Source: a virus | DNA length: 34,599 nt | Reading direction: 5' to 3' (one strand) | IMG/VR virus record: IMGVR_UViG_3300042564_002201 | Coordinates: 1 to 34,599 of that record | Shown: positions 2,972 through 15,986 of the stretch, in pieces | Layout: the number at the start of each line of letters is the position of its first letter | How positions within the stretch are numbered: position 1 is the first letter of the stretch | Position numbers and translations under genes: made by a program | Notes under the pieces: generated by a model | Told to the model about the DNA's origin: nothing | What the model saw: only the letters and a program-made list of their open reading frames with translations | The model's database searches: none

Positions 2972-3149
2972 GTGTACGTCAGTCATAACAAATAGTTTAA
3001 TTAGAAAGGCTATAACTAGAGATAAGTGGTATAGCGTACTATGGAGTAACCAATACGGATTTACATTCATAAACGATAAAGGAGACCTATCTCTAGGTCG
3101 ATTTAAAAATTGTAGTTTAATAAATAATAATTGGGAGGTAAAAATATGA
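2961..3149 (+). CDS. small beta-rich hypothetical protein
   Basis: 62 aa from ATG 2961; a GTG at 2940 would add seven residues inside the upstream gene and is less likely. The pattern is an alternating beta barrel-like sequence (VRCTSVIT, KWYSVLW, YGFTFINDKGDLSLGRF), as in small SH3-like folds found in Bacteroidota phages. Its last bases contain the Shine-Dalgarno of the next gene, with which it overlaps by four bases. Confidence 0.6.
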   Translation: MKVRCTSVITNSLIRKAITRDKWYSVLWSNQYGFTFINDKGDLSLGRFKNCSLINNNWEVKI

Positions 3150-3346
3150 GTTTAAATTTTAAAGAATTAAGTAGAATGGATCAAGTTAAAGCAATAAATG
3201 AAACAATATCACAACACGATGAATCTTTCTTGGCGTATCTTATAGCGTCAAACGAAATGGATTTATTTTCGTGGTTTAGCTTTCATTTATCTGAAGACGG
3301 ATCTGATTATTGGATTGACAAAATAAAATCAAAAAAAGATGAATAA
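3146..3346 (+). CDS. hypothetical protein with a strong Shine-Dalgarno
   Basis: 66 aa, starting at ATG 3146; the TTG at 3131 is rejected because GGGAGG (3132-3137) sits at the right distance before ATG 3146 and would be coding otherwise. A good SD is unusual in this window. The protein is acidic and helical (DQVKAINETISQHDESFLAYLIASNEMDLFSWFSFH). Function unknown. It overlaps the next gene by eight bases. Confidence 0.65.
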   Translation: MSLNFKELSRMDQVKAINETISQHDESFLAYLIASNEMDLFSWFSFHLSEDGSDYWIDKIKSKKDE

Positions 3347-7142: not shown

Positions 7143-7152
7143 AATAAATTAC

Positions 7153-7160
7153 TATATTTG
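7153..7160 (+). promoter_or_regulatory. promoter -7 box of the RNA cassette
   Basis: TATATTTG matches TAnnTTTG exactly and is identical to the box at 4086-4093. No good TTG is seen 19-21 bases upstream. Start of transcription would be near 7164-7168, just where the folded RNA sequence begins (CTCAC at 7166). Confidence 0.6.
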
Positions 7161-7165
7161 CATAT

Positions 7166-7242
7166 CTCACAATCAAGATTTCGAGTTATAGGTGCTTGTC
7201 GCTGTCGGTATTCGGCAGTATCTGGAACAAGCTAAGCGTGAG
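7166..7242 (+). ncRNA. structured RNA element next to the promoter
   Basis: CTCAC (7166-7170) can pair with GTGAG (7238-7242). Inside, GCTTGT (7194-7199) pairs with ACAAGC (7227-7232), and within that CTGTCG (7202-7207) pairs with CGGCAG (7213-7218) with a five-base loop. The nested arrangement and lack of any frame suggest a folded RNA of about 77 nt. No known family recognised. Confidence 0.4.
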
Positions 7243-7260
7243 TTCGTCAGGCCTAAATAT

Positions 7261-7378
7261 AGTCAGGTGGCGGAATGGTAGACGCACGGAGGGCAAAGAA
7301 TTTTGTACACATCTGCGGTGAAAGAGGATATTGCCTGTTGAACTTTCACAATTACAGGTTCGATTCCTGTCCTGACTA
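7261..7378 (+). tRNA. tRNA-Leu-like gene with an oversized, non-canonical centre
   Basis: The ends are those of a proper tRNA: acceptor AGTCAGG (7261-7267) with CCTGACT (7371-7377), discriminator A7378, T arm ACAGG-TTCGATT-CCTGT (7354-7370). The D arm TGGCGGAATGGTAGACGC (7268-7285) is of the Leu type. The total is 118 nt, against about 85-90 for a type II tRNA. From 7286 to 7353 I cannot place a normal 5-bp/7-nt anticodon arm: GGGCA (7290-7294) can pair with TGCCT (7332-7336) but encloses 37 nt, and GTGAAAG (7318-7324) can pair with CTTTCAC (7343-7349). No CCA is encoded. It may hold an insertion or intron, be decayed, or be a tRNA mimic. Confidence 0.5.
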
Positions 7379-7381
7379 CAA

Positions 7382-7463
7382 AATCTATAAGATGTTATTG
7401 TCTCTAGTCTAGAATAGATTCAATGATACGATTCGTAGCTCCAAGGGTAGTGGCTTATAGATT
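7382..7463 (+). ncRNA. 82-nt RNA element closed by a 10-bp stem
   Basis: AATCTATAAG (7382-7391) and CTTATAGATT (7454-7463) are perfect reverse complements. Inside, TTATTG pairs with CAATGA (one wobble) and TACG-ATT-CGTA forms a small hairpin. The element begins four bases after the tRNA-like gene. Its length is that of a tRNA, but it has no TTCGA T-loop. Family unknown. Confidence 0.45.
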
Positions 7464-7470
7464 ACCTGGA

Positions 7471-7543
7471 GATAAAGAAAGCTGAAGGGGTACAGCAGTC
7501 AGCATAGCTGAAAGGGTTGCAGGTTCGAATCCTGCCTTTATTG
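7471..7543 (+). tRNA. tRNA-like sequence with a degenerate anticodon arm
   Basis: Canonical 73-nt length. Acceptor GATAAAG (7471-7477) with CTTTATT (7536-7542, first pair G-U), D arm with GCT/AGC stem (7481-7483 with 7494-7496) and GGGG loop, and a perfect T arm GCAGG-TTCGAAT-CCTGC (7519-7535). At the anticodon position only TCA/TGA pair. The seven-base loop would be GCATAGC, without U33. An alternative hairpin CAGC-ATA-GCTG (7500-7510) has no anticodon. So decoding ability is doubtful: pseudo-tRNA, mimic, or a divergent tRNA. Confidence 0.4.
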
Positions 7544-7680
7544 CAGCAGTTGCTTGATGTCAAATATGTACAGCAACAGACATTGGAGAGATTTGGCCTC
7601 TCACGAATGTTAAGTCCTATCGGGCAGAATAGGGGATGAGTACTTATGAGTGTATGTGATTTTACCAACCTCCAACCTCA
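7544..7680 (+). other. non-coding spacer with several hairpins
   Basis: No credible gene. GTTGCT (7549-7554) pairs with AGCAAC (7572-7577). ACATT (7580-7584) with AATGT (7606-7610) encloses GAGAG-ATTTGGC-CTCTC (7586-7602), a 5-bp stem with a seven-base loop. CCTAT pairs with ATAGG near 7616-7633. The folding resembles tRNA arms but no T arm follows. Function unknown. Confidence 0.3.
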
Positions 7681-7686
7681 TCAAAC

Positions 7687-7760
7687 GTCCGCATAGCTCA
7701 ATTGGTTAGAGCATCTGACTCATAATCAGAAGGTCGTAGGTTCGATTCCTACTGCGGACA
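7687..7760 (+). tRNA. tRNA with CAT anticodon (elongator Met or Ile-lysidine type)
   Basis: A fully canonical 74-nt tRNA: acceptor GTCCGCA (7687-7693) with TGCGGAC (7753-7759), D stem GCTC/GAGC, anticodon stem TCTGA/TCAGA (7714-7718, 7726-7730) with loop CTCATAA and anticodon CAT at 7721-7723. The variable loop is AGGTC and the T arm is GTAGG-TTCGATT-CCTAC (7736-7752). The G1-C72 pair excludes the initiator type. Met versus Ile(CAU) cannot be settled by eye. CCA is not encoded and must be added by the host. Confidence 0.95.
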
Positions 7761-7767
7761 CTCAGTA

Positions 7768-7848
7768 ATTAGCGAATGAAAAAGAATCCTTACAAACCTT
7801 GTAAAGTTGGCCGCACTATTGATTGTATCGCTATTGGTATTCGCTAAT
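7768..7848 (+). ncRNA. 81-nt RNA element closed by a 10-bp stem
   Basis: ATTAGCGAAT (7768-7777) and ATTCGCTAAT (7839-7848) are perfect reverse complements. The size and closing stem are nearly the same as those of the element at 7382-7463, though the sequence is different. It begins eight bases after the tRNA. No T loop, and no reading frame of note. Confidence 0.45.
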
Positions 7849-7915
7849 GATGTATTCATAATGACCGATAAAATAGTGTATAGGTGACTCCTATGAAAGT
7901 ATAGGAATGTGTGAT

Positions 7916-7946
7916 AGGGTGTTACTTTTATAAGTAGCGCCTTTTT
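7916..7946 (+). terminator. strong intrinsic terminator of the RNA cassette
   Basis: AGGGTGTTACTT (7916-7927) pairs along 12 positions (with three G-U pairs) to AAGTAGCGCCTT (7932-7943), loop TTAT, and the U tract covers 7942-7946. It ends the transcript that begins near the promoter at 7153-7160. Confidence 0.85.
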
Positions 7947-7991
7947 CACACTTTATTTTCAAGTTATCTTTAATTGAATAAATATATTTAG

Positions 7992-7999
7992 TATCTTTG
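7992..7999 (+). promoter_or_regulatory. promoter -7 box before the short RNA and replication block
   Basis: TATCTTTG matches TAnnTTTG. A TTG at 7974-7976 is 15 bases upstream, shorter than the usual 19-21. Transcription would start near 8004-8008 and run into the structured RNA 8014-8107. Confidence 0.65.
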
Positions 8000-8013
8000 C
8001 GGTGTTATTAAGG

Positions 8014-8107
8014 TGAGAGCTAATAACTACATACTGAAAAATTAATAAATAATCCTAACTGGATCAGCGGCTCTCAATCAATCCTCGCTATCTTGTTGGG
8101 ATTTTTT
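8014..8107 (+). ncRNA. short structured RNA with terminator; small RNA or attenuator
   Basis: TGAGAGC (8014-8020) pairs with GCTCTCA (8070-8076), enclosing the hairpin ATCC-TAACT-GGAT (8052-8064). Just after it AATCCT (8080-8085) pairs with GGGATT (8098-8103) followed by TTTT (8104-8107), a terminator shape. AATCCT occurs twice (8051-8056 and 8080-8085), so GGAT (8061-8064) could instead pair with the second copy and break the terminator. It is either an independent small RNA or a leader controlling the gene at 8156. No known class recognised. Confidence 0.5.
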
Positions 8108-8155
8108 GTTTTAAATAATTAAATAGTTTATCGGTGTCTTAAAACCGTTATTATT

Positions 8156-14180: not shown

Positions 14181-14413
14181 AACCAAACGAAACACATCCA
14201 AAACACCAAGTAAACAGAGCTTTACTTGAAAGTGAAAGAGTAGTTCTTATAAATAGAACTATGAAAAAAATCAATCAAGCTACAGACTTCCTTTATGAAA
14301 GCTTAATGGATAAGGAGAGAGCATATACTTTCTCTGCAATATCTAAGCTAGAATCATATTGCGAAGAAATTAAAAACGATTTTGATAAATTCCTAAAAGA
14401 TGGAGAAAAGTAA
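14177..14413 (+). CDS. small helical hypothetical protein
   Basis: 78 aa, helical, with a mid segment KINQATDFLYESLMDKERAYTFSAI and an acidic C-terminus. Sits between the nuclease and the large phosphoesterase, overlapping both. Function unknown. Confidence 0.6.
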   Translation: MKPNETHPKHQVNRALLESERVVLINRTMKKINQATDFLYESLMDKERAYTFSAISKLESYCEEIKNDFDKFLKDGEK

Positions 14414-15986
14414 AAAGAAACAGCTACTGAATAGAATTAGTGAGTTGTACGGAGTTAGTAATAATATAACTCAATCCTGTATAGTTGCCTGTAAGGAAAA
14501 CGATATAGAGTATAATGATAACCTAAGAAGAGCTTTCTCTAAAAGGCTAAAGGCTTTAGGTATCTCTGAGGAGAAGAACCCAGAATTATCTCCAGAGTTT
14601 GAGATGGCAAAGAAAAAGGAGTTTGATAGATCTAAGAAAAGATTTATCATATCTTGGGCGCAATCTGAAACAGATGTATTTAAGCCATTCATTAAAAACA
14701 TAGAGGCGTACGCAAGTTACATCAATGCCGAAATATTAATTGTTGCTGGTAGATATAAAAATCCTGTATCTTTAAAGGATAGTCAGTCTCTATCAGATAA
14801 CGAGAAGTATAACAAAGAGATGTACTGGGATAAGTCGATAGCTGGTTACTTAGATGCCAACAGACACAATATCCACAAGCACTTAGTTATTGCATCCGAT
14901 GTAAAGATTCAACCAACAGCAGAGACACCATTATCTGGACTCAATTCTTTAACAGGTCTTGAGAGTTGTATATTTGGACACCCACGTGTACACTTTGATT
15001 CCCTTCCTGTCTTGGATGGATACCCAAACAAAATCCTTATGACTACTGGTGCTGTTACAATACCAAACTACACTGACACAAAAAGTGGAAAGAAGGGTGA
15101 GTTTCATCATTCGTATGGATTTGTAGTTGCAGAACTAGATGGTGATAACTTCCACGTTAGACAGGTTACTGCTTCTGATGATGGATCATTCTATGATTTG
15201 GATGTCTTAGTCGACAATTCAATAATCGTAGAGGACCAGGTAGCAGAGGTTATGATATTTGGTGATGTGCATATTGGAGACCACGATGAAGAAGCCTTAT
15301 CATTATCTATAGATATAGCTAAGAAATTGAATGTTAATCACGTTGTACTTCACGATATATTTAACGGTAAGTCTATATCACCACACGATAGCAAAAGTCC
15401 ATTTGAACTTCTAAGAAAGGAACAAGAAGGACTTGATGATTTAGTTAGTGAGATGTCAGAGGTGATTGATTTCTTCGAGCAAAACTCAGATATTGACTTT
15501 ATAGTTGTAAGATCCAACCACGATATTTGGTTAGACAGATGGCTTAATGATACCGACTGGAGAAAATCAAATAATAAGATGACATACCTTAAGTTAGCAT
15601 CAGAGATGGCTAGTGACACAGAAGGTAAAGGTGCTTTAAATGTTATCCTCAGAATCAATAACGTAGAGAATGCTTATTGTTTGGATTTGGATGAGAGCTT
15701 CAATGTCAATGGATTCGAGTTAGGTATACACGGACATCAGGGAGCTGGTGGCAGTAGAGGTTCTATGATTCAATTCAAGAACTTAAATACCAAGAATGTA
15801 ACTGGTCACTCTCACGTTCCAAGAAGAATGAATGGTGCGTTATCTGTTGGTACGCTAACTAAGCTTAGACTAGGGTATAACAAAGGCTTGAGTGCTTGGA
15901 TGCAATCAAATGTTATTATACACCAAAACGGTAAAGCACAGCACTTAAATATAATTAACGGAAAAGTAACAACTTTATGGAAATAA
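14400..15986 (+). CDS. large metallophosphoesterase, T5 A1-like architecture
   Basis: 528 aa. The metallophosphoesterase core is in the second half: D289-x-H291 (FGDVHIGDH), N373-H374-D375 (RSNHD), H444-x-H446 (IHGHQG) and GH470-x-H472 (TGHSH). The N-terminal 280 residues are not a known catalytic fold to me but contain conserved-looking stretches (KRFIISWAQSETD, FGHPRVHF). An N-terminal extension plus this core, about 530 aa long, is like phage T5 A1 and its relatives, which are tied to host DNA breakdown and DNA transfer. The link is by architecture and is an inference. The start overlaps the previous gene by 14 bases. Confidence 0.8.
   Translation: MEKSKKKQLLNRISELYGVSNNITQSCIVACKENDIEYNDNLRRAFSKRLKALGISEEKNPELSPEFEMAKKKEFDRSKKRFIISWAQSETDVFKPFIKNIEAYASYINAEILIVAGRYKNPVSLKDSQSLSDNEKYNKEMYWDKSIAGYLDANRHNIHKHLVIASDVKIQPTAETPLSGLNSLTGLESCIFGHPRVHFDSLPVLDGYPNKILMTTGAVTIPNYTDTKSGKKGEFHHSYGFVVAELDGDNFHVRQVTASDDGSFYDLDVLVDNSIIVEDQVAEVMIFGDVHIGDHDEEALSLSIDIAKKLNVNHVVLHDIFNGKSISPHDSKSPFELLRKEQEGLDDLVSEMSEVIDFFEQNSDIDFIVVRSNHDIWLDRWLNDTDWRKSNNKMTYLKLASEMASDTEGKGALNVILRINNVENAYCLDLDESFNVNGFELGIHGHQGAGGSRGSMIQFKNLNTKNVTGHSHVPRRMNGALSVGTLTKLRLGYNKGLSAWMQSNVIIHQNGKAQHLNIINGKVTTLWK

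Follow-up and report, generated by a model that had tools for sequence, protein, structure and literature searches.

What is made from a stretch of phage DNA that runs for about 0.8 kb from a promoter to a terminator, holds no gene and carries several tRNA-shaped units of which only one is a normal tRNA? The locus lies in a linear 34.6-kb IMG/VR virus contig (IMGVR_UViG_3300042564_002201), all 34,599 nucleotides of which are called the window here. The left part of this contig has about 73% DNA identity to the genus Elemovirus, which comprises Flavobacterium phages.

The predicted transcription unit

The interval 7143-7960 is flanked by the stop of a 77-aa ORF (7142) and by the next promoter and contains no ORFs except two short frames on the minus strand, which confirms the gene-free cassette of about 0.8 kb proposed in a sequence-only reading of the window. 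The untranslated unit proper (7153-7948) begins with a promoter of the Bacteroidota type, ends with an intrinsic terminator and sits before a second promoter and the replication genes. Elemovirus has a shorter version in the same place, as marked by the homologous small ORF and replication protein, where only tRNA-Met or tRNA-Ala and hypothetical proteins are annotated. In all relatives of the cassette locus that were read, TAnnTTTG is found at the same position. The elements follow one another in this order (window coordinates, strand, identity, basis):

7153..7160, +, promoter -7 element TATATTTG of the Bacteroidota type TAnnTTTG (sequence; position kept in relatives)
7187..7261, +, element A, three-way junction RNA, 5' module (conservation, covariation)
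7261..7380, +, Leu-type tRNA-like (acceptor AGTCAGG/CCTGACT, A73, Leu D-arm, canonical T-arm)
7382..7463, +, element E, closed by a perfect 10-bp inverted repeat, AATCTATAAG/CTTATAGATT (no other support)
7471..7545, +, second tRNA-like with a 5-bp anticodon stem, an AUA triloop and G73 (Rfam tRNA 33.9 bits; fold)
7544..7683, +, element D, 3' module directly behind the discriminator base (14 loci; covariation)
7687..7760, +, normal tRNA, anticodon CAU, Met or Ile2 (ARAGORN; Rfam 79.6 bits)
7769..7905, +, element B, five-helix pseudoknot RNA (covariation, covariance model)
~7916..7948, +, intrinsic terminator, 12-bp stem and T-run (fold z -5.0)

Among the relatives used for comparison, the L-numbered loci come from metagenomic contigs, many of which are related to one another. 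Structures were first read by eye from few sequences and then counted, so that the paired percentages given below lean towards these structures, a bias that slid and shuffled controls lessen but do not remove. Minimum free energies are ordinary for most elements (z of -1.6 for A, 0.06 for D, 0.25 for B and -0.2 for the Leu-like); since the z-scores of the whole cassette and of its single elements are mostly non-significant, they were not used as proof. It is covariation in homologues that places A, B and D beyond chance, free energy alone being insufficient for most elements. Conservation with compensatory changes, the test named in the sequence-only reading, was thus found for these three; for element E there is no homologue to compare. 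The Rfam check proposed there also gave a divided answer: the tRNA-CAU and the tRNA-like at 7471-7543 were matched, but A, B and D fall into no Rfam 15 family at the gathering score, either in the cassette stretch or in relatives. They are structured RNA families new relative to Rfam 15; the cassette kind itself is already known, and unsolved.

tRNA and tRNA-like units

The normal tRNA with a CAT anticodon stands as first read, ARAGORN and Rfam agreeing on 7687-7760, and it alone in the cassette passes the anticodon-arm test described below, as the claim of a single normal tRNA implied. Neither Rfam nor ARAGORN finds a tmRNA in the window. The Leu-like tRNA with an oversized centre was likewise correctly recognised: the unit at 7261-7380 combines a Leu D-arm and A73 with an altered anticodon and variable region, which can form an H-type pseudoknot (GGGCAA..GTGAAAG..TTGCCT..CTTTCAC) whose score is matched or beaten by 6 of 300 shuffles. 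The unit described as a degenerate tRNA-like reaches 33.9 bits with the Rfam tRNA model at 7471-7543, above the gathering score of 29; its AUA triloop of 3 nt means that it has no anticodon loop. This triloop tRNA-like was found only in this phage.

To place these units in a wider sample, 31 tRNA-shaped genes were collected via the modules described below or via neighbouring ORFs, not via anticodons. The T-loop is canonical in 31/31 of these module-anchored genes and in all three window units, which have acceptor, D and T arms. In contrast, a permissive test for an anticodon arm of 5 bp and 7 nt is passed by 6/31 only, against 27/32 annotated T4 and T5 tRNAs (Fisher p 2e-7, a value that is optimistic because several of the 31 genes are close homologues). 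Two of the six passes (L159a and L261) are probably due to chance similarity within long inserts. The arm is absent from the window units 7261-7380 and 7471-7545.

What replaces it varies: a triloop in the window unit 7471-7545, tetraloops (L252, L254, L258), a UACUG pentaloop (L166, L167, L172) or a large conserved loop (L172, L175, L245). In six tRNA-likes (window, L168, L005/L254, L261, L162 and L257) an H-type pseudoknot joins the arm to the variable region, the observed score being reached by 2-13 of 300 shuffles. The same reading was dropped for L150, L159a, L162a, L172 and T5 RNA1, where the shuffle test did not support it. Two different tRNA bodies, those of L005 and L254, share an identical insert of about 73 nt, and a 29-nt D-loop hairpin is identical in the tRNA-likes of L005, L166, L167, L175 and L263. 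The latter hairpin also occurs outside any clear tRNA in L265, L266 and L267. A Leu-type D-arm with A73 is shared by the window Leu-like and several relatives, and Elemovirus has an Ala-like member. Since both odd tRNA-likes of the window lack a usable anticodon loop, replacement of cleaved host tRNAs, one of the roles suggested in the sequence-only reading, is unlikely for either of them.

Modules at the 5' side

Two of the element boundaries drawn in the sequence-only reading, those of the first element and of an 81-nt element (see element B), proved wrong. The first had been closed at 7166-7242 by a CTCAC/GTGAG stem that relatives do not have; the real closing stem is TATAGG/CCTA, which delimits element A as 7187-7261. 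Element A is 81-84% identical in Elemovirus, L005, L017 and L022, and its 19 pairs are kept at 100% in five sequences, three of them with compensatory change. In Elemovirus it begins about 4 nt after TTTG and should therefore form the 5' end of the transcript. A short pattern taken from the A hairpin gave scattered matches in genome contigs; among those listed, the ones compared with A had only short similarity to it, and the matches were taken as chance.

Element C, a 47-nt 5' module absent from the window, was found in 19 stretches of viral contigs, among them L005 (3521-3567), L022, L150, L151, L159 and L162. It precedes tRNAs, tRNA-likes, a tmRNA or a large ncRNA; in tRNA-bearing loci it ends 0-3 nt before the tRNA or tRNA-like, and in several loci of related phages it lies directly behind TAnnTTTG. 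On inspection, a hammerhead-like reading of C was rejected. The 5' modules are not restricted to tRNAs, because A occurs once between protein genes with no tRNA behind it (L017, 6258-6330) and C stands before a large ncRNA in some phages. The large untranslated RNA behind C is conserved in L150, L151, L153 and L158.

Modules at the 3' side

What had been taken for a hairpin spacer (7544-7683) is in fact a strongly conserved structured RNA, element D, the core pattern of which matched 15 stretches of viral contigs (contigs of up to about 114 kb). In 14/14 loci that were read, all picked by their D sequence, the first base of D immediately follows N73, whether this belongs to a tRNA, a tRNA-like or a tmRNA. 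If there is a tRNA downstream, about 3 nt separate it from the end of D, so that in seven loci, the window among them, D fills the space between neighbouring tRNA units but for a few nucleotides; elsewhere it is followed by a terminator, not a tRNA. Across 13 distinct sequences, pairing in its five helices is 97.7%, and four of the helices show changes on both sides; the alignment has over 80 invariant columns. A pseudoknot between loop 1 and helix 2 was rejected since it shows no covariation. An exact 23-nt match to D in a 'Listeria phage' record was rejected, since it lies at an apparent ribosome-binding site before a response-regulator gene.

The 81-nt stem-closed element of the sequence-only reading turned out to be one helix of a larger pseudoknotted RNA of about 137 nt, element B (7769-7905). 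In an alignment of 13 distinct sequences, made with MAFFT and no use of structure, helices P3 and P4 are 92-100% paired through changes on both sides, and hairpin P2 is 91% paired; 105 cells are changed on both sides, compared with 45.5 in shuffles. P1 is misaligned by MAFFT, and its strands were scored against their own partners (mean 19.9), against partners from other sequences (11.2) and against shuffled letters (11.7), 3/13 sequences being individually weak. B is a pseudoknot, as P3 and P4 have their 3' strands downstream of the 3' strand of P1. P5 is a 3' hairpin with a GGARAGA-type loop conserved in relatives and compensated changes in its stem. The covariance model R1 built for B matched 16/87 sources at E below 1e-16, but most of these had been among the sequences used to train it. 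B stands behind a tRNA, tRNA-like or tmRNA in every locus read; it begins roughly 8-17 nt after the tRNA end, and is thus less exactly placed than D. In Elemovirus it ends in a hairpin that serves as terminator. The B model had no match in 397 genomes of one family, nor the D pattern in 395 genomes of one phylum, both sets being without positive control, and these searches thus give no evidence for chromosomal or prophage copies.

Of the stem-closed 82-nt element, E, the perfect 10-bp closing repeat is the part that holds. No homologue was found in the relatives searched, E being known only from this phage, and its free energy (z 0.14, folded as 7386-7469) is no better than that of shuffles.

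Relation to known RNAs

The records of T4 and T5 list stable and tRNA-like RNAs of unassigned function within tRNA clusters, and untranslated structured or tRNA-like RNAs inside a phage tRNA transcription unit are likewise what the cassette contains. By analogy of kind, not homology, T5 RNA1, RNA2 and RNA3 and T4 rnaC and rnaD are the same unsolved kind as the cassette. In T5, stable RNAs lie between phage tRNAs (RNA1, RNA2, RNA3; RNAI, RNAIII, RNAIV, RNA2H, RNAX), and RNA1 is, like the window Leu-like, a Leu-type tRNA-like with an oversized centre. In T4, species 1 and 2 (rnaC and rnaD) are stable RNAs of 139 and 119 nt beside the tRNAs, and rnaC ends in a T-arm. T5 RNA1, T5 RNA2 and T4 rnaC also fail the anticodon-arm test. 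However, T5 RNA1 has no significant pseudoknot, T5 infects another host group and its RNAs are likened to the cassette by kind; similarly, the minimum free energy structures of rnaC and rnaD differ from D and B, the likeness again being one of kind. These T4 and T5 RNAs have been annotated without explanation, and the same kind is now seen in phages of another bacterial phylum.

Theta ribozymes, which are HDV-like, sit at the 3' ends of tRNAs in phages mostly of Bacteroidota (PMC10879173). In position alone, D coincides exactly with their 3' junction in 14/14 loci. However, D and B are about 140 nt long, lack the nested double pseudoknot of HDV and have another helix order. No HDV-family Rfam match was obtained, the limit being E 5 for the window stretch and E 1 for relatives; D and B bear no likeness to any ribozyme in Rfam, and an HDV-like fold for D and B was ruled out by Rfam and by helix order.

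tmRNA joins a tRNA acceptor/T domain without an anticodon arm to pseudoknots. The tmRNA genes of related phages have the same D or B modules behind them, but the tRNA-likes differ from tmRNA in that no tag reading frame was seen, the D-arm is kept and the length is about 60-180 nt. Phage tmRNA genes were noted in contigs with C, D or B (L150 at 2992-3317, L151, L255, L259-L262; L159, L162, L253), and some tmRNA-bearing contigs contain group I introns.

Proposed function and alternatives

Across the relatives, the acceptor and T arms, the module junctions and the covarying helices persist, and it is the anticodon arm that is replaced. These comparisons indicate that tRNA-shaped bodies are maintained without their usual decoding arm and that the modules stand in fixed register with tRNA ends. 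The cassette may well be a phage operon for stable RNAs of the sort known from the tRNA clusters of T4 and T5, made up of non-decoding tRNA-likes and of modules that mature or protect ends. A single transcript would start at about 7165 and end at about 7948, and host RNase P and 3'-end processing would cut out the three tRNA-shaped units; the predicted release of several stable RNAs from one precursor, already suggested in the sequence-only reading, is well supported by the anatomy, the homologous loci and the T4/T5 precedents. The CAU unit would be a working tRNA. In the two others, the acceptor, D and T arms are kept and the decoding arm is replaced; unable to decode, they would have to act as stable non-decoding RNAs. 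The modules (A flush with a 5' unit end, D flush with a 3' end, B about 8-17 nt behind a 3' end) would most likely act in cis, maturing or protecting these ends by self-cleavage or by blocking nucleases, a role for which theta ribozymes at tRNAs of other Bacteroidota phages may serve as precedent. A wider proposal, put forward tentatively, is that D, perhaps with B at 3' ends and A and C at 5' ends, represents new self-cleaving or nuclease-blocking RNA classes that finish tRNA, tRNA-like and tmRNA ends without host enzymes, and that pseudoknotted anticodon-less tRNA-likes form a widespread non-decoding class that also explains T5 RNA1 and T4 species 1.

The modules could themselves be the products. 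The tRNA-likes would then be nothing but cutting signals, and A, D and B, perhaps also E, trans-acting small RNAs given exact ends by RNase P and RNase Z. These two enzymes recognise the acceptor/T domain, the very part that the tRNA-likes keep, and both the tight fit of D between tRNA units and the high sequence conservation of D and A speak for such a role. Nevertheless, we find it unlikely, given that D elsewhere precedes a terminator instead of a tRNA, that the final hairpin of B is itself the terminator in Elemovirus, and that the anticodon regions of the tRNA-likes carry pseudoknots or conserved modules of their own, beyond the needs of a cutting signal. This explanation and a stable-RNA operon differ in which RNA should accumulate.

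Two further explanations concern the tRNA-likes themselves. They might be chargeable by Leu and Ala synthetases that ignore the anticodon and, unable to decode, divert a host enzyme or a defence that targets tRNAs. The Leu-type D-arm with A73 and the Ala-like member in Elemovirus are what one would expect of such decoys, and the anticodon is dispensable for E. coli LeuRS (PMC9976931). However, A73 is not universal, the second tRNA-like having G73; RNAs without an anticodon cannot bait anticodon nucleases; no defence partner is known; and A, B and D are left unexplained, all of which makes this idea rather improbable. We give still less credence to the view that phage tRNA genes are simply decaying among neutral structured spacers. 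The set does differ from phage to phage, element E and the triloop tRNA-like having been found in this one alone, and the RNAs of this kind in T4 and T5 have no known function. Yet T-loops remain canonical throughout the sample, acceptor and T stems are kept amid many different sequences, and damage is confined to the anticodon or D-loop region, where structured inserts recur, two of them (about 73 and 29 nt) in identical form in different bodies or contigs. If the cassette is a stable-RNA operon with end-maturing or end-protecting modules, cleavage or end protection is expected exactly past the discriminator base, and aminoacylation should occur without decoding; Elemovirus isolates on Flavobacterium sp. 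BAL314 make these predictions open to test in culture.

Neighbouring observations

Behind the cassette, a second Bacteroidota-type promoter (TATCTTTG) starts an RNA of about 110 nt (7992-8110), a hairpin loop of which base-pairs with a strand further downstream, within the stem of the terminator. Covariation was seen across 14 sequences of Flavobacterium phages and contigs, and the RNA, standing before the replication genes, looks like a leader or attenuator. A type III hammerhead ribozyme is located at 216-272 (Rfam 49.6 bits, gathering score 48.5). The gene at 14400-15986 encodes a phage 'DNA transfer protein' (phrog_1745, E 2.5e-143) and is annotated as A1-like in Elemovirus; A1 is the name of a protein of T5, the phage whose tRNA cluster holds RNAs of the same kind as the cassette. 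Finally, IMGVR_UViG_3300046002_004363 (99.6 kb) carries two copies of the cassette region (L005 and L012) about 63 kb apart and is perhaps two joined genomes.
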